Positions 2,492 through 41,779 of a stretch of DNA of 45,935 nt are shown here, one piece after another. Made by a program: the position numbers and the translations under genes. Under the pieces are notes generated by a model. The model worked only from the letters and a program-made list of their open reading frames with translations, made no database searches and was not told where the DNA came from. Each line of letters opens with the position of its first letter. The first letter of the stretch is position 1. Location of the stretch: positions 1 to 45,935 of the forward strand of contig JAMOSZ010000023.1 in NCBI GenBank assembly GCA_027062625.1, in the 5' to 3' direction. This DNA is from Nautiliaceae bacterium (GTDB lineage: Bacteria > Campylobacterota > Campylobacteria > Campylobacterales > Nautiliaceae).

Positions 2492-2990
2492 GTGGCTCTT
2501 TTTTTCTCTTTTAACAATTATATTCTTAGAAAAGATAAAAGATAGGATTTTATATTCTAAAAATATGTTTTTAGTAATGCTTATGGGATTATTTACGACT
2601 TTACCCCACGAACTTGCTCATTATATCGTGGCGTTAATACTCGGAGGTCGTCCCGAAGGTATATATTTGATACCAAAAAAGATAGAAAAAGGAGGAGTTA
2701 TTTATTACACTTTTGGCAGTGTTAAAAGCTATATAAACGGCTTAACGGCTTTTTTTATTGGTTTTGCACCGCTTTTGTGGCTTTTGGCAGGATTTTTTTT
2801 AGCAAAGAACTGGGAAATTAAAAGTTTTATAGATTTAGAGACATTTTTTATCCTTGAATGGATTTTTATTACAAACGCAATCCCTTCAAAAACGGATTTA
2901 AAGATTGCTTTTTCATCCGGTTGGGCATATATAATATTAATTTTAATAGGAGTGGCAATATGGCTAAAATTTGGAAAGAACTTCATATAA
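2481..2990 (+). CDS. Membrane protein with HEXXH (M50-like zinc protease candidate)
   Basis: 169 residues, about four hydrophobic segments. PHELAHYIVA at residues 42-51 is an HEXXH zinc-binding motif embedded in a membrane helix, as in site-2 proteases (M50) and related membrane zincins. I do not see the second M50 motif (NPDG-like), so this may be a small relative such as the DUF3267/M50-like group, or a non-proteolytic one. The gene overlaps its upstream neighbour by 11 bp and its own 3' end overlaps the start of the RHH gene, so it belongs to the traD-linked operon. No substrate can be inferred from sequence. Confidence 0.6.
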   Translation: MYYEWLFFSLLTIIFLEKIKDRILYSKNMFLVMLMGLFTTLPHELAHYIVALILGGRPEGIYLIPKKIEKGGVIYYTFGSVKSYINGLTAFFIGFAPLLWLLAGFFLAKNWEIKSFIDLETFFILEWIFITNAIPSKTDLKIAFSSGWAYIILILIGVAIWLKFGKNFI

Positions 2991-3115
2991 GAATTGAACA
3001 AAATACATACGAAGAAATCAAAAAGCTTGCGGAAGAAGAAGGACTGAGTGTCACTGCGTTTATACGCGTTGTTCTTAATAAAAAAATAAAAAATAGTAAA
3101 AGGAAAAAAAGATGA
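2960..3115 (+). CDS. Small ribbon-helix-helix DNA-binding protein
   Basis: 51 residues. The frame is open further upstream, but the ATG at 2960 with an AGGAG eight bases before it is the only start that makes sense; the upstream extension is a shadow of the preceding gene. KELHIRIEQNTYEEIKKLA gives the ribbon strand and first helix, and GLSVTAFIRVVLNKKI the second helix of a CopG/Arc/MetJ fold. A Lys/Arg-rich tail follows. RHH proteins are common relaxosome accessories (TraY) and plasmid autoregulators. Its place between the traD/HD genes and the GC-rich structured element suggests it may bind DNA there, for example an oriT, but this is inference. Confidence 0.65.
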   Translation: MAKIWKELHIRIEQNTYEEIKKLAEEEGLSVTAFIRVVLNKKIKNSKRKKR

Positions 3116-3408
3116 GAAAAGGTCAAAAAAAAAGACTTGATATTCTTAAGAAAAGTAAAACTAAATTTTTTTTACCAAAAACCGCAACCACAATACCTTT
3201 ATATGACCTTTTGATTGAGATTGATTTTTTTCTTGATAGAGTTAAAAAAAGTGATATTCCTGATGAAGAAAAGTCTAAAGTTTTAAATGGATTTAAAAAA
3301 CTAACGATAAACTTAAGCGAGACTTTCAAAAAACTATCAGAGAAATACAATATACCATTCAACGAACCGTTTGATATAACAATGTTTAGGGATGATTTGA
3401 AAAAATAA
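3112..3408 (+). CDS. Conserved-looking protein of unknown function
   Basis: 98 residues, overlapping the RHH stop by 4 bp (ATGA), so clearly in the same operon. Very basic N-terminus (KKRLDILKKSKTK), then two amphipathic helices with a possible coiled coil (about 30-85). No motif recognised. It is the last gene of the leftmost plus-strand operon, immediately before the structured GC-rich element. A nucleic-acid-binding partner of the RHH protein is possible, but nothing in the sequence proves it. Confidence 0.55.
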   Translation: MRKGQKKRLDILKKSKTKFFLPKTATTIPLYDLLIEIDFFLDRVKKSDIPDEEKSKVLNGFKKLTINLSETFKKLSEKYNIPFNEPFDITMFRDDLKK

Positions 3409-3434
3409 ATAAGATTTGTTAAAATAAAATTACA

Positions 3435-3700
3435 TTTACCGCTTTGCGGCTGTCTCTTCAATACCCTAACGCTCGGGTGAAGAGCTAAAGTGTATCGGGT
3501 GAGCGAACGCATCCCCCCTGCGTCCCGATGCACGGCAGGCAAAACCTGTCGAAGGTGGGGGTTTAGTCAGTATCCCGCCCGGGATACTTGATAAAGCCTC
3601 GGGGAACCCGAGAAGGCTGTCACGGCTTTTTTTAAAAGCCGATGGCAGTAAAGGGGTGGAGTATGCCCTCTTCCCCGGGGCTTTGGAATGGAGTTAGTCT
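3435..3700 (+). ncRNA. GC-rich, multi-hairpin element: novel structured RNA or single-strand DNA control element
   Basis: A strongly GC-rich island in very AT-rich surroundings. Hairpins I can pair by eye: 3439-3442/3446-3449; 3454-3460/3478-3484 with inner CCC/GGG; 3490-3499/3524-3533 enclosing 3507-3511/3519-3523; 3534-3539/3545-3550; 3570-3576/3581-3587; 3599-3603/3607-3611; 3617-3622/3643-3648 enclosing 3623-3630/3634-3641. The C-run loop at 3513-3518 can pair with GGGGG at 3557-3561 (pseudoknot), and 3596-3604 can pair over nine bases with 3673-3681. Four wobble pairs (3493-3530, 3535-3549, 3620-3645, 3599-3678) are G-T on the plus strand and would be A-C on the other, so the plus-strand sequence is the one that folds. 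It matches no RNA family I know. Alternatives: oriT, or a single-strand promoter of the Frpo kind. Confidence 0.5.
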
Positions 3701-3720
3701 TCTTAAATCTTAAATTTCCA

Positions 3721-3742
3721 AAAAATCATTGCAATGATTTTT
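3721..3742. other. 22-bp perfect palindrome
   Basis: AAAAATCATTG followed by its exact reverse complement, between the GC-rich element and the first GGAGTTAG-led gene. As RNA it gives a hairpin ending in a short U-run, so it may terminate the upstream RNA; as DNA it could be a protein-binding site. Being AT-rich, it would be a weak terminator. Confidence 0.45.
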
Positions 3743-3785: not shown

Positions 3786-3989
3786 ATGACATATTTTGAA
3801 ATGTTAGAAAATATTGATGCAGAAGTAACTTTTGTAGGAATTGATGAAGCAGAATGGAAATTGCTGGTGACTGATAAAGCGAAAAAAGCTGGAATACCAA
3901 ATGAACTTATAAAACAATATGTTGATGGAGATTTGGTAATTGTGAACGGAACACCATATGACCTTAATGGCAATCAACTTAAATTTTAA
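3786..3989 (+). CDS. Small acidic protein of unknown function
   Basis: 67 residues, acidic, predicted mixed helix/strand with no signal peptide or TM segment. The start is fixed by AAAAGGAGTTAG ending one base before the ATG. It is the first of seven plus-strand genes sharing this leader and the first gene after the structured element. Small acidic proteins at the head of plasmid leading regions are often antirestriction or DNA-mimic proteins, but I see no specific motif and do not assign that role. Confidence 0.6.
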   Translation: MTYFEMLENIDAEVTFVGIDEAEWKLLVTDKAKKAGIPNELIKQYVDGDLVIVNGTPYDLNGNQLKF

Positions 3990-4025
3990 TTAAAAGCATA
4001 AAAGATTATTAGAAAGGAGTTAGAA

Positions 4026-4112
4026 ATGGAATTAGCACTTATTGGAGCAGGAATGGTTATTTACGGAATTTTTAAATTCAAACAAGTCCAAGAACGCTTA
4101 AATGCGTTTTGA
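4026..4112 (+). CDS. 28-residue single-TM micropeptide
   Basis: Short frame starting at the ATG two bases after AGAAAGGAGTTAG, ending with TGA. The peptide is a hydrophobic segment (residues 2-16, LALIGAGMVIYGIF-like) followed by a basic/polar tail (KFKQVQERLNAF). It is supported by the same leader and exact spacing as its larger neighbours. A membrane micropeptide is plausible; function unknown. It resembles in character the broken small hydrophobic frame at 9986-10094. Confidence 0.5.
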   Translation: MELALIGAGMVIYGIFKFKQVQERLNAF

Positions 4113-4159
4113 GGCCTGTTATTTAGTGTATTTATTTAATACTTAGAAAGGAGTTAGAA

Positions 4160-4795
4160 ATGAGAATGAGTGAAACAATTAGTAAAATTAGCGCAGATTT
4201 AGTTAAAGTAATGGCAGAAGTAAAAGATGTTACAAAAAACTCAGAGGGGTTTGGATATAAATACGCTTCACTTGATGAGGTATTAAAAGTCGTAAGACCT
4301 ATTGCCGCACAACATAGTATCTCTATTTTTCAATCTCAAAAAATAGAAGATGGAATTGTAAAAGTAGAAACAATGCTTTTACATTCAAGCGGCGAATATC
4401 TTATCAGTGAAGTAGAAGCTCCATACACAGAACTAAAAGGTATGAATGCTTACCAATCTCTTGGAGCGGCTATTACATACCTTAGAAGATACTCATTAAG
4501 CAATGCGTTTGGTATCTCTTCAGAAGAAGATACAGACGCAAGTAATAAATATCCAGAGCCTCAAAAATCTCAAAAACAAACCCAAAAACCTCAACCGCAA
4601 AAACAATCTGATGAAGCAGATGAAAAATCTCTTGAAGCATTGGGAATTGAGTTAATTGAAAAAGATGGATATGTAAAAGCGGTTGAAAAAGTTAAAGGTG
4701 CAATCTATCAAAACAGAGAAGTTTTGAAAAAATTAGGGTTTAAATTTAGTAAAGAAAAAAAAGTTTGGTATAAGAAACTTACAGAAGCAGTATAA
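4160..4795 (+). CDS. ERF-family single-strand DNA annealing protein
   Basis: 211 residues. ERF proteins bind ssDNA ends and promote annealing in phage and plasmid recombination. Residues 25-45 (EGFGYKYASLDEVLKVVRPI) and 93-129 (GMNAYQSLGAAITYLRRYSL, then NAFGISSEEDTDAS) are the conserved ERF core. A Gln/Lys/Pro-rich linker (about 130-152) separates it from a basic C-terminal segment that may bind DNA. Start at ATG 4160 after AGAAAGGAGTTAG; the downstream ATG two codons later has no own RBS. In a gene cluster with an antirestriction protein, it would fit repair or recircularisation of incoming single-stranded plasmid DNA (inference). An SSB is encoded elsewhere on the element at 42.2 kb. Confidence 0.88.
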   Translation: MRMSETISKISADLVKVMAEVKDVTKNSEGFGYKYASLDEVLKVVRPIAAQHSISIFQSQKIEDGIVKVETMLLHSSGEYLISEVEAPYTELKGMNAYQSLGAAITYLRRYSLSNAFGISSEEDTDASNKYPEPQKSQKQTQKPQPQKQSDEADEKSLEALGIELIEKDGYVKAVEKVKGAIYQNREVLKKLGFKFSKEKKVWYKKLTEAV

Positions 4796-4807
4796 AATTA
4801 GCTATTA

Positions 4808-4827
4808 GCCAAAGCCTTGGGCTTGGC
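4808..4827 (+). other. Hairpin between ERF and next gene
   Basis: GCCAAAGCC and GGCTTGGC pair with one bulge. No T-run follows, so it is not a classical terminator; it may attenuate or protect the transcript. Its core AAGCCTTGGGCT recurs in the true terminator at 6649-6677. Confidence 0.4.
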
Positions 4828-4904
4828 ATCCTTAAAATATTCAAAAATCACTGACACAAATCTAAAACAAGATAAATTAAAAGATTATTAGAAAGGAGTT
4901 AGTA

Positions 4905-5120
4905 ATGTTTCCAAAATGGAATTTAGAAAAACCTCGTAACGAAATGTTAAAAGGCTTTTCTGTATTTTTAATACAGGATATAGCCTATACATACGGACTT
5001 GATATTGCAAATAAATTTGTAAAAAAGGTATATGAGGAAGCTAAAAAATTTTACGGAGATTTTGAAGTAATAAAACATTCTACATATACTGAATTTAAAA
5101 AAACATTTGAAAGGAGTTAG
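4905..5120 (+). CDS. Small protein of unknown function
   Basis: 71 residues, Lys/Phe/Tyr-rich, helical (a long amphipathic helix around residues 28-50). Started by AGAAAGGAGTTAG two bases before ATG. Its last codons GAA AGG AGT TAG are themselves the GGAGTTAG leader of the following ArdC gene, so stop codon and next RBS coincide and the pair must be translationally coupled. No family recognised. Confidence 0.6.
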   Translation: MFPKWNLEKPRNEMLKGFSVFLIQDIAYTYGLDIANKFVKKVYEEAKKFYGDFEVIKHSTYTEFKKTFERS

Positions 5121-5122
5121 TT

Positions 5123-6016
5123 ATGAGTAAATTATCAGAAATTAGAAAAGAATATCAAAAAACTATCAGCGAGCTTAAAGAAGTAATGCTTACAAACCCA
5201 AAATGGGTAAAAGATTGGGTTATTGGTATAAGAAACTTTTTTGGAAAAACCTCTTACTCGGTATTAAACCAGCTTAACCTCTCTATGCTTATGGCATTTA
5301 GGGGAGAACACAAAGAGCCTTATTTTGCCACTTTTAAACAAATTAAAGACAGAGGCTACAAATTAAAAAAAGGCTCAAAGGGTTATCCAATCTTTTTTTA
5401 TAAACCTTATGAGATTGAAAAAAAAATAGAAAAAGAAGTCGTAGATATTGATGAAAACGGAAATGAAGTAATTAGAACTGAAACTGTAAAAGTTAAAAAA
5501 ACTATCCCTCTTTTAAAAAGATACATTGTTTTTAATATAGAAGACATAGAGGGAATTGAAATACCAAAAGAAGAAACTTTGGAACTTTCAAAAAGGGGAA
5601 TCTTTGAAAGAATAAAAGATGAGGTAACAATTACTTACGGCGACCCGGCCTGGATAGTAGGTGAGAAAAAAATTTTAATGCCTAAAGTGGCTGACTTTGT
5701 AAATCAAGATGCTTTTTTGGCAGCATTGCTTCACGAATTTTCTCATTATACCCATTGGAAAATAGGTCTTATGGACGCTGACAACGCAAAAACCACCAAA
5801 ACTTATGCTTTTAACGAAGTTGTGGCCGAAACAAGCGCCGCCGTGTTATGCAATATTCTCAATATTGAATACCCGCTTGAAAGACACGCCGGATACTTGA
5901 AAAGCTGGGGTGAGCTTTTAAGTGACAAAGAGTTTGAAAAAGCTATTAAAGAGGCGGGAAAGGTCGTAGATAACATAGTTGCACATTTGAAAAAAAAAGT
6001 GGTCAGCGCCGCTTGA
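5123..6016 (+). CDS. ardC: ArdC-like antirestriction protein / zincin metallopeptidase
   Basis: 297 residues with the two parts of ArdC-family proteins. The N-terminal ssDNA-binding ArdC domain (about 25-95) includes WVIGIRNFFGKTSYSVLNQ, PYFATFKQI and LKKGSKGYPIFFYKP. The C-terminal zincin part has HEFSH at 204-208 (HEXXH) and the downstream glutamate helix NEVVAE (231-236). ArdC proteins protect incoming ssDNA or plasmids from restriction during conjugation. A 30-residue charged insert (about 97-128) interrupts the domains. It is translationally coupled to the preceding gene and sits in the cluster with the ERF protein, which supports a role early after transfer. Confidence 0.85.
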   Translation: MSKLSEIRKEYQKTISELKEVMLTNPKWVKDWVIGIRNFFGKTSYSVLNQLNLSMLMAFRGEHKEPYFATFKQIKDRGYKLKKGSKGYPIFFYKPYEIEKKIEKEVVDIDENGNEVIRTETVKVKKTIPLLKRYIVFNIEDIEGIEIPKEETLELSKRGIFERIKDEVTITYGDPAWIVGEKKILMPKVADFVNQDAFLAALLHEFSHYTHWKIGLMDADNAKTTKTYAFNEVVAETSAAVLCNILNIEYPLERHAGYLKSWGELLSDKEFEKAIKEAGKVVDNIVAHLKKKVVSAA

Positions 6017-6372: not shown

Positions 6373-6648
6373 ATGGACTATAAAACATTTGAAGTAAATG
6401 AAGAGGGCTATACGGCACTTGAAGCATTTTTAAAATCACGCCCAAAATGGAGACCTCTTACAGAAGAGGAACTCGATAAATATAGATTTTGGGATGATTT
6501 TGAATGGGGAAGTTTTGCACACACAGACCCAAGCTATTTTGTGGTATCTCCAAATGGAAAAGTTTGGAAGTTTGTGTCTTTTTTGCACAACAATACTTTT
6601 GTGTATGAGGTAACGCTTAAAAGCGCTACTCCAAAAGGATTTATTTAA
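6373..6648 (+). CDS. Protein of unknown function, last gene of the GGAGTTAG cluster
   Basis: 91 residues, aromatic-rich with a strand-rich C-terminal half (SYFVVSPNGKVWKFVSF) that looks like a small beta domain. Begins 13 bases after the preceding stop with AGAAGGGAGTTAG as leader. A strong terminator follows the stop immediately, so this closes the plus-strand cluster. No family recognised. Confidence 0.6.
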   Translation: MDYKTFEVNEEGYTALEAFLKSRPKWRPLTEEELDKYRFWDDFEWGSFAHTDPSYFVVSPNGKVWKFVSFLHNNTFVYEVTLKSATPKGFI

Positions 6649-6677
6649 CCCCAAGCCTTGGGCTGGGGATTTTTTTA
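6649..6677 (+). terminator. Rho-independent terminator of the 3.7-6.6 kb cluster
   Basis: CCCCAAGCC and GGGCTGGGG form a GC-rich stem with one bulged A and a three-base loop, followed directly by ATTTTTTTATTT. It begins at the base after the stop codon of the last gene. Confidence 0.85.
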
Positions 6678-6685
6678 TTTATACT

Positions 6686-6713
6686 TATTTCATACCGATA
6701 TCGGTATGAAATA
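6686..6713. other. 28-bp perfect palindrome between convergent operons
   Basis: Fourteen-base arms (TATTTCATACCGAT and its exact reverse complement) with no spacer. It lies between the terminator of the plus-strand cluster and the end of the minus-strand cluster. No T-run flanks it, so it is probably not a terminator; a dimeric protein-binding or recombination site is more likely. Confidence 0.6.
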
Positions 6714-6751
6714 CAAAAGCAAAAAGAAAAAAAGAAGAGAATTTCTAAAAA

Positions 6752-7381
6752 CTACTGCTTTGCAGCGTTTTCTTTTAAAAATCTTCTAAATTCGTTTCTA
6801 AGCGAAGTCCATTTGATGAGGTATTTTGCCCTTACTTTATCTTTAAAGATATTAAATGTAAAGTCTTTTAACTCTTTTAACGCTTTTTCAAATTCATTTA
6901 AAAGCTCAATCCATTCTTTTGCCTTATTGCTTCTTTTAATCCTATCATTAAATGTATCAATTCTTATAAGGGCTTCAAACAATATATCTTCATCCTCATC
7001 ATTGCTTACAAACACCTCAACCATAGGAGAATTTACCCTGTTTATAAGTCTTATTTTTGTATTTACGGCAGTTGCAAGAAGCTTTGAATAATCCACATCC
7101 CCGAACTCTTTTGTAAATTCAATAATTTTTCTTGCAGTTTCTAAAACTTTGTTAAATTTTTCTTCAATTGCTTTTTTATCTTCATCTCCTATTTGAAATC
7201 CCCAGAGTTCCATCACGGCTTCTTTAATATATGCCGCCTCTCTCGTAATTTTTGCAAATCTGTCCCTTATAATCGGAGAATTAAAAACATATACCACGCT
7301 GTTTGCCGGATTTTCCCTTACAACCTGGATTTTTTTAGCTTTATACGCATTTGGATTGATGTTTAGTTTTTTTTGTGCCAT
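6752..7381 (-). CDS. Unknown protein, last gene of minus-strand accessory operon
   Basis: 209 residues, charged, mostly helical with likely coiled coil (about 80-110 and 155-205). The SPMVEVFVSNDEDEDILFEALIRIDTFNDRI type segment (about 125-150), a short Ser-Pro motif followed by an acidic helix, faintly recalls DUF1845/AcaB proteins of integrative elements, but not enough for assignment. Start ATG 7381 has a GGAGTTAG leader one base away, the same leader used by the plus-strand cluster, and a second identical GGAGTTAG lies 24 bases further upstream (7407-7414). This is the only gene of its operon with that leader. Confidence 0.55.
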   Translation of the reverse strand: MAQKKLNINPNAYKAKKIQVVRENPANSVVYVFNSPIIRDRFAKITREAAYIKEAVMELWGFQIGDEDKKAIEEKFNKVLETARKIIEFTKEFGDVDYSKLLATAVNTKIRLINRVNSPMVEVFVSNDEDEDILFEALIRIDTFNDRIKRSNKAKEWIELLNEFEKALKELKDFTFNIFKDKVRAKYLIKWTSLRNEFRRFLKENAAKQ

Positions 7382-7429
7382 TCTAACTCCTTTTTCTAAA
7401 AATTTTCTAACTCCTTTTGGAGTATTTTA

Positions 7430-7642
7430 TTATATAGTTTCTTTAACCATTTTCTCAATTACTTTTAATAATTTTTGGGCAATTTTTTCAAAATTTTCCT
7501 CATACAGCTTCGGTTCTATCAAAACCACCTCATTATTGTCAAAACCGCACATAGAATATACTTTTTGTGTTTTAAGCTCAAGAAAATAGTTATCCCTTAA
7601 CGGGATAAAAGTGTTTTTAAATTCTTTAACCAAGACTCTCAT
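7430..7642 (-). CDS. Small protein of unknown function
   Basis: 70 residues. Start overlaps the stop of the upstream gene (ATGA), so translation is coupled. N-terminal half likely beta (PLRDNYFLELKTQKVYSM), C-terminal amphipathic helix (ENFEKIAQKLLKVIEKMVK). No family recognised. Confidence 0.55.
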   Translation of the reverse strand: MRVLVKEFKNTFIPLRDNYFLELKTQKVYSMCGFDNNEVVLIEPKLYEENFEKIAQKLLKVIEKMVKETI

Positions 7643-8064
7643 AATTTCCCCTCTAAAATATTGTTTAAAATTCCTTTTGCTTCTTTAACAAGCCTGTCGC
7701 ATTTATTGGATATAACGGGATAGGGGATATTTTTAATTTCAAACCTGTTTGTATTCTCCAAAGCGTCCAAATCTTTATTTTTTACGCATAAAATATTAAA
7801 ATCGGTTTTGTTTTGCGAATTTGCTATATCTTTTACCAAATCTTTAATGTTTTGAAATCCTCCTCCTTTTGCTCCTACACTGTCAAATGAATAAAAACCT
7901 TTATAATCAAAATAAACTGCTTTATTCGTAACAACGACAGGGGCGCATAAGTGATAAAAATTTGATTTTTCTTCTTCTATTAAAAAATAAACATTTAATA
8001 TCTTTTCATCTTTGTCAAGATATTTTGAAATACCGTTTCTCATATCAATTCTTTTTTTTACCAT
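7639..8064 (-). CDS. Protein of unknown function
   Basis: 141 residues from ATG 8064; the GTG one codon upstream is in frame, but ATG with GAGGAG seven bases before it is preferred. The start overlaps the preceding stop by one base (TGATG). Mixed alpha/beta composition, no TM segment, a Gly-rich stretch (AKGGGF) near residue 66 and a C-terminal helix. No motif recognised; a stand-alone soluble protein of the accessory operon. Confidence 0.55.
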   Translation of the reverse strand: MVKKRIDMRNGISKYLDKDEKILNVYFLIEEEKSNFYHLCAPVVVTNKAVYFDYKGFYSFDSVGAKGGGFQNIKDLVKDIANSQNKTDFNILCVKNKDLDALENTNRFEIKNIPYPVISNKCDRLVKEAKGILNNILEGKL

Positions 8065-41541: not shown

Positions 41542-41779
41542 AGTATGAAAAAAGTCATATTTAGTATGAAAAAAGTCATATTTAAGTATGAAAAAAGTCA
41601 TATTTAGTATGAAAAATGTCATATTTAGTATGAAAAATGTCATATTTAAGTATGAAAAATCCCAATTTTTCGGGCATTTTAAACCTCTACATTATACAAG
41701 ATACATTAATAAGAACATCTACACTATAAAAGAAAGTAATTTTCTAAAAATTAATAAAAGTATGAAAAAAGTCATATTA
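41542..41779. repeat. Iteron array: plasmid replication origin
   Basis: Five tandem 21-22 bp copies of AGTATGAAAAAAGTCATATT(T), the last two with TGTCAT instead of AGTCAT, start at 41542, 41563, 41585, 41606 and 41627. A degenerate copy begins at 41649, a partial one lies at 41528, and an isolated copy is at 41759-41779. The 21-22 bp pitch places sites on one helix face, as iterons do. The A+T-rich stretch 41660-41760 between the array and the distal copy may be the melting region. Confidence 0.88.

Follow-up and report, generated by a model that had tools for sequence, protein, structure and literature searches.

The DNA analysed here (the window, at its full length) is an entire contig (C23) of 45,935 bases from a genome of 1.48 Mb. 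A Rep3 initiator, ParA/ParB-like genes and an F-type transfer system are encoded on it, and because of this gene content the contig is read as that of a conjugative plasmid. A structured element separates the end of the traD operon from an operon of small ORFs, ERF and ArdC (Table 1). The end of the traD operon comprises genes for TraG-D_C, an HD-domain protein, a YdjM-like protein, an M50B-like protein, a ribbon-helix-helix (RHH) protein and a 98-aa ORF. The ribosome-binding string GGAGTTAG recurs before the genes of the following operon at 3786, 4160 and 5123, and it is also found at 3690-3697, directly after helix P6 of the element, without a start codon.

The best boundaries of the element enclose about 245 bases, and sequence conservation with a congener (G006) reaches 3703. 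The element marks the GC maximum of this AT-rich contig, so that the GC-rich island claimed by an earlier, sequence-only reading of this DNA is borne out: the two GC-richest 266-base segments start at 3431 and 3441 (0.55, compared to a contig mean of 0.32). It should be noted that other stretches of the window also resemble contig C41 of G006. The non-coding stretch 4804-4907 behind ERF is 92% identical to C41 1387-1492 and contains the hairpin GCCAAAGCCTTGGGCTTGGC; positions 6639-7647 are 93% identical to C41 3382-4392, compared to mostly 70-80% for the rest of the two plasmids, and this block includes the ORF 6752-7381, a homologue of an ORF embedded in the group I elements described below. 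Positions 41575-41776 align with C41 in several registers, as would be expected of iteron-like tandem repeats close to the Rep3 gene.

Table 1. Features of the element, its surroundings and the related group I elements (window coordinates unless a locus is named)
Feature	Position	Strand	Basis or remark
RHH gene, weakly NikA-like	2960..3115	+	Pfam scan of window proteins
98-aa ORF	3112..3408	+	related plasmids have homologues at traD operon end
Predicted sigma-70-like promoter	3397..3425	+	TTGAAA-N17-TAAAAT, TG before -10; 10/12 matches
Structured RNA element, whole	3438..3681 (approximate)	+	folding, covariation and tree-edit comparison
P1 hairpin	3439..3449 (3439-3442 with 3446-3449)	+	1 covarying pair
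P2	3454..3484 (3454-3459 with 3479-3484)	+	3 covarying pairs
P3	3490..3533 (3490-3499 with 3524-3533)	+	bulge; 3 covarying pairs
P3b, inside P3	3507-3511 with 3519-3523	+	closes 7-nt C-rich loop; 4 covarying pairs
Pseudoknot	3514..3561 (P3b loop 3514-3518 with 3557-3561)	+	adjoins conserved GUUUAG; 1 covarying pair
P4 hairpin	3534..3550 (3534-3539 with 3545-3550)	+	4 covarying pairs
P5 hairpin	3569..3588 (3569-3576 with 3581-3588)	+	4 covarying pairs
P6 long-range helix	3596..3681 (3596-3604 with 3673-3681)	+	nearly invariant; competes with local P6'
P6' local helix	uses invariant strand 3607-3616, CCCGAGAAGG	+	energy close to P6
P7	3617..3648 (3617-3628 with 3636-3648)	+	conserved bulged A; 7 covarying pairs
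P8	3653..3669 (3653-3656 with 3666-3669)	+	conserved loop ending AGTATG; two pairs with G-U exchanges
AT-rich hairpin, few T after; possible weak terminator or attenuator	3721..3742	+	folding energy
Operon behind element	3786..6016	+	67-aa ORF, then ERF 4160-4795, ArdC 5123-6016
Group I element, pHRV44	L081:1500-2660		
Group I element, pCIG1485E	L077:31540-32770	-	
Group I element, C. upsaliensis	L080:11690-13220		

Fold, covariation and folding strand

Folded as RNA, the plus strand of 3425-3705 has a minimum free energy of -118.5 kcal/mol (z -5.17), which none of 200 shuffles equalled, whereas the minus strand folds less well (z -2.27, equalled by 2 of 200 shuffles). A diverged full-length copy from another genome of the family (G014, see below), folded alone, gives z -10.4 and contains 58 of the 63 nested consensus pairs. 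In both copies, stability on the coding strand exceeds that of dinucleotide shuffles, as is expected of a structured RNA. The free folds of the two copies are separated by a tree-edit distance of 112, compared to 204 +/- 26 for shuffled G014 sequences, none of which (0/200) came as close.

The window and G014 copies were aligned by structure and fitted by hand, which favours structure, and the comparison comprises two full copies and one fragment. The ten helices comprise 70 pairs, and standard pairs fill 98.7% of the cells; the figure drops to 43-49% once the 3' partners have been slid along by 1-3 bases. Covariation in homologues, which the sequence-only reading had named as a check on its proposal, was found: both sides have changed in 27 of the 70 pairs, compared to 12.2 +/- 2.5 in shuffles and 0-3 with slid partners, and helices P2, P3, P3b, P4, P5 and P7 have three to seven double-changed pairs apiece. 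The compensatory changes that mark a structured RNA are thus present in a hand-fitted alignment of two full copies, and they have alignment-free support as well. The solo fold of the G014 copy and the tree-edit distance are independent of the hand alignment, and its bias therefore does not touch them.

Conservation between the two copies is unevenly distributed. Identity is 25-49% in P1-P5 and P7, compared to 90% in the pseudoknot strand with GUUUAG, 95% in the 5' strand of P6 with CCCGAGAAGG, and 80% in P8. Judged from sequence, such variable stems around an invariant core are the pattern of a functional RNA. The pseudoknot occurs in G014 in an identical register (ACCCAC/GTGGGT), with a 7-nt loop in both copies and one replacement of C-G by A-U.

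The sequence-only reading had listed at least seven stems, a possible pseudoknot, a nine-pair long-range helix and four wobble pairs, all of them G-T on the plus strand. Ten helices were counted here, pseudoknot included; the C-run 3513-3518 does face GGGGG 3557-3561, and the long-range helix joins GCCTCGGGG (3596-3604) to CCCCGGGGC (3673-3681), as had been described. The direction of the wobbles also stands; their number does not, as the window copy has five G-T and zero A-C wobbles. Across copies, the wobble is G-T on the plus strand in seven of the eight wobble-bearing pair columns and A-C in one (sign test ~0.035, by our own arithmetic), and because of this excess the plus strand is taken as the folding strand. 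We are highly confident that the element is a real plus-strand structured RNA. The earlier suggestion of a new structured RNA is supported by the covariation, by the independent folding of the homologue and by the absence of an Rfam match.

Copies of the element and known classes

Two homologues were found. A BLASTN search within the family gave 97 bases at the end of contig C41 of G006, with 91% identity, which cover window positions 3607-3703; the absent 5' half of this copy was looked for in the G006 genome and not found. A search with the ERF protein led to a G014 contig of the same family, Nautiliaceae (JALWNI010000091), where the diverged full-length copy stands at the operon head (L046, reverse complement 1-254). 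The element lies ahead of the ERF operon in all three copies, and the first gene behind it is not the same among them. Both the contig G006:C41 (L047:1) and the contig G014:C91 (L046:3679) break off within the element or right at it; the element may therefore be repeated in those genomes or break short-read assembly. The G014 operon also contains a second, different structured stretch (L046:2335-2455, minus strand; -57.5 kcal/mol, z -6.8) in the gap that separates a homologue of the 67-aa ORF from the gene after it.

Further copies were sought with two covariance models, one (R1) built on the 3' domain and the other (R2) on the element as a whole. In 21 genomes of the family and 397 genomes of the class, R1 returned the known copies and no others; R2 found no new copy in 399 genomes of the order and missed the truncated G006 copy. 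Neither model yielded additional copies on the fetched plasmid loci. Among loci drawn by pattern, R1 found no copy in viral contigs and, in GTDB contigs, the G014 contig alone among the matches listed. Weak R1 matches such as L147 (E 0.0098) were discarded, as these loci had been picked for the P6 palindrome itself. Two weak DNA matches were also rejected: L003 lies inside a protein gene and L018, by reading, appears to do so too. Plasmid and phage sequences searched by BLASTN with the element gave short matches only, mostly to the AT-rich 3' flank, and ERF searches of viral contigs gave no close relative. The element family is rare, or has other members in unsampled habitats. Literature searches, limited to one library, found no account of this RNA or of the group I elements of the related plasmids.

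In Rfam 15, no family reached its gathering score for the window copy (best E 0.71, nothing credible at E up to 10) or for the G014 copy, so that the claim that the element matches no RNA family holds. The element represents a new RNA family, of which three copies are known and which has no relative in Rfam. ARAGORN gave no tRNA or tmRNA match for the element. A T-box was considered for a GGGTGG-like string at P8 and was dropped, being absent among the Rfam results. The traJ 5' UTR and traJ-II are structured leader RNAs of plasmid operons and resemble the element in heading such an operon; however, the element has no Rfam match at gathering score, and the genes and the host phylum are different.

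The sequence-only reading had also offered an origin of transfer (oriT) or a single-strand promoter. We found no positive evidence for an oriT: a Pfam scan of 19 window proteins turned up no recognisable relaxase (the contig being incomplete), a nic site could not be identified, and an elaborate, covarying fold with a pseudoknot is no hallmark of an oriT. The incompleteness of the contig and the NikA-like RHH gene just upstream leave this reading some room, and the window or the related plasmids may encode a relaxase of a type that was not recognised.

Leading regions contain genes of the type of ERF and ArdC. That the element precedes both, that as DNA both of its strands are more stable than shuffles (z -4.5 and -5.2), and that an RHH gene lies upstream would suit a single-stranded DNA element, i.e., a promoter on the entering strand like the Frpo of F-like plasmids, or part of an oriT. 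Frpo, too, is non-coding, structured and located in front of establishment-type genes (PMC9849209, PMC11541004), and it rebuilds its -10 and -35 boxes inside a stem-loop (PMC9849209). In the window, by contrast, such boxes are not rebuilt in a stem of the folded template strand, and the only good hexamers (3397-3425) lie outside the helices. The template of the plus-strand genes is the minus strand, and a single-strand promoter for them would need the minus fold, in which the G-T wobbles of the plus strand become A-C; therefore, this reading is unsupported. With the missing relaxase and nic site, and with covariation and a pseudoknot that point to RNA, a single-stranded DNA element of either kind is very improbable.

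Group I elements of related plasmids

Three related plasmids were reached through the transfer ATPase: Nitrosophilus labii pHRV44, Campylobacter iguaniorum pCIG1485E and a C. upsaliensis plasmid. The order in pHRV44 and pCIG1485E is the traD operon, ending near the homologue of the 98-aa ORF, one further gene, the slot, ssb, Bet and a metallopeptidase resembling ArdC. The C. upsaliensis plasmid has its traD operon at another place, and its slot is read at the head of the ssb/Bet genes. All three plasmids have full F-type transfer genes and are typed non-mobilizable. The R2 model did not find the window element in any of them. Instead, each of the three has in this slot an intergenic group I ribozyme element that is split by an embedded ORF; the three ORFs belong to one family. 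The two halves in pHRV44 match RF00028 with E 3.3e-9 and 5.9e-7, both below the gathering score, and none of the halves in the two Campylobacter plasmids reaches E 0.01 in Rfam; a TTCAGAGACTATC strand and a TATAGTCCGTTC strand are common to all three elements. In pHRV44 and pCIG1485E, a TG-extended sigma-70-like promoter stands directly before the element. Homologues of the 98-aa ORF in other Campylobacterota genomes have no adjacent group I motifs or evident RNA element, among the matches listed.

Like the window element, the group I elements are structured RNAs that head an ssb/Bet/ArdC-like operon of related F-type conjugative plasmids. However, the window contains neither an RF00028 match nor the P7 strands of group I (TTCAGAGACTA / GATATAGTCC), the element has no Rfam match, and no relation in sequence or structure was detected. 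Another difference is in the embedded ORF, the homologue of which (32% identity for pHRV44) stands alone in the window at 6752-7381, outside the element. Since structured RNAs head equivalent operons, the slot seems, from gene order, to attract or require a structured RNA, as a result of either a shared function or an insertion hotspot.

The element might then be a new ribozyme, self-cleaving or otherwise catalytic, that fills the role of the group I ribozyme of the related plasmids. The pseudoknot, the compact multi-helix fold and the invariant core strands would be in keeping with catalysis, as would the group I ribozyme in the equivalent slot of pHRV44; against this, the element resembles no ribozyme family in Rfam, lacks the group I P7 strands and may share the slot by coincidence or because it is an insertion hotspot. 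We regard a new ribozyme as improbable. The same low expectation is attached to a broader proposal, in which the element is a plasmid ribozyme or a fold-switching RNA of a new class and does the work of the group I ribozyme at this operon head in the sister plasmids, so that two unrelated complex RNAs would have one function.

Transcription, alternative folds and possible function

The predicted promoter ends about ten bases short of P1, with a predicted transcription start at ~3432-3436, just before this hairpin. Such sites occur at chance level in this AT-rich region, and the site is therefore only suggestive; together with the wobbles, it agrees with a plus-strand transcript that would begin at the element. 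A promoter scan of the interval between the element and the first gene found no comparable site, and the operon may therefore depend on read-through. A hairpin is found at the place of 3721-3742 in both the window and G006, with different sequences (-5.4 and -8.3 kcal/mol). The terminator scan does not call it in the window, and an antiterminator pairing with it was looked for and not found.

The strand 3596-3604 has two partners: 3673-3681, forming P6, or, for the most part, 3607-3616, forming P6'. When either helix is forced in the window copy, the energies are -110.0 (P6) and -109.8 kcal/mol (local alternative), a difference of 0.2; the corresponding values for the G014 copy are -133.8 and -131.7 kcal/mol, a difference of 2.1, with the pseudoknot outside the model in both cases. 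The two folds that the sequence-only reading had thought possible are thus almost isoenergetic in both full copies. All three strands involved are nearly invariant, and therefore covariation cannot say which helix forms. Because the near-equal stability is found in two diverged copies, a real switch between P6 and P6' is plausible on these modelled energies.

The explanation that we tentatively prefer is that the plus-strand RNA is a 5' leader of the ERF/ArdC operon with a P6/P6' switch. RNA polymerase would start from the promoter at 3397-3425, so that P1 would be the 5' end of the transcript. Helices P1-P5 would fold and be locked by the pseudoknot that the P3b loop forms with the strand preceding GUUUAG; in the 3' domain, the strand 3596-3604 would then choose between P6' and P6. 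This choice might help to set the read-through of transcription past the hairpin at 3721-3742, or the translation of the operon, with ERF/ArdC as the presumed target in cis. The structure, its conservation and its strand are the part of this explanation that the data establish. Placement of another structured RNA at the equivalent operon head of the related plasmids supports a leader, whereas a first gene that differs among the three copies is odd for a leader controlling a given gene. Given a real structured RNA, a leader acting in cis has an even chance; the whole explanation, switch included, falls slightly short of that.

The main rival is a discrete plasmid RNA of ~300 nt that ends at the 3721-3742 hairpin and acts in trans by binding a protein or another RNA, e.g., in plasmid establishment or transfer, the operon being a mere neighbour. 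A large pseudoknotted fold with an invariant core, the hairpin after the element in the window and G006, and a first downstream gene that is not kept between copies would all be compatible with such an RNA. Conversely, an ERF operon follows each of the three copies, the stretch from the element to the operon has no good promoter-like site, and the hairpin is AT-rich and is not called as a terminator. We consider a trans-acting RNA rather unlikely, and the cis-acting leader is retained as the preferred reading.

To our knowledge, there are few complex pseudoknotted bacterial RNAs of this size, and several of them have proved to be ribozymes, riboswitches or protein scaffolds. Since a diverged homologue is at hand, the covarying pairs and the invariant core have been mapped and the operon is defined, the element is ready for probing and reporter tests. 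The presence of a group I ribozyme in the same slot of related plasmids raises the question of whether the operon for single-strand DNA annealing and anti-restriction has to be headed by a structured RNA in these plasmids.
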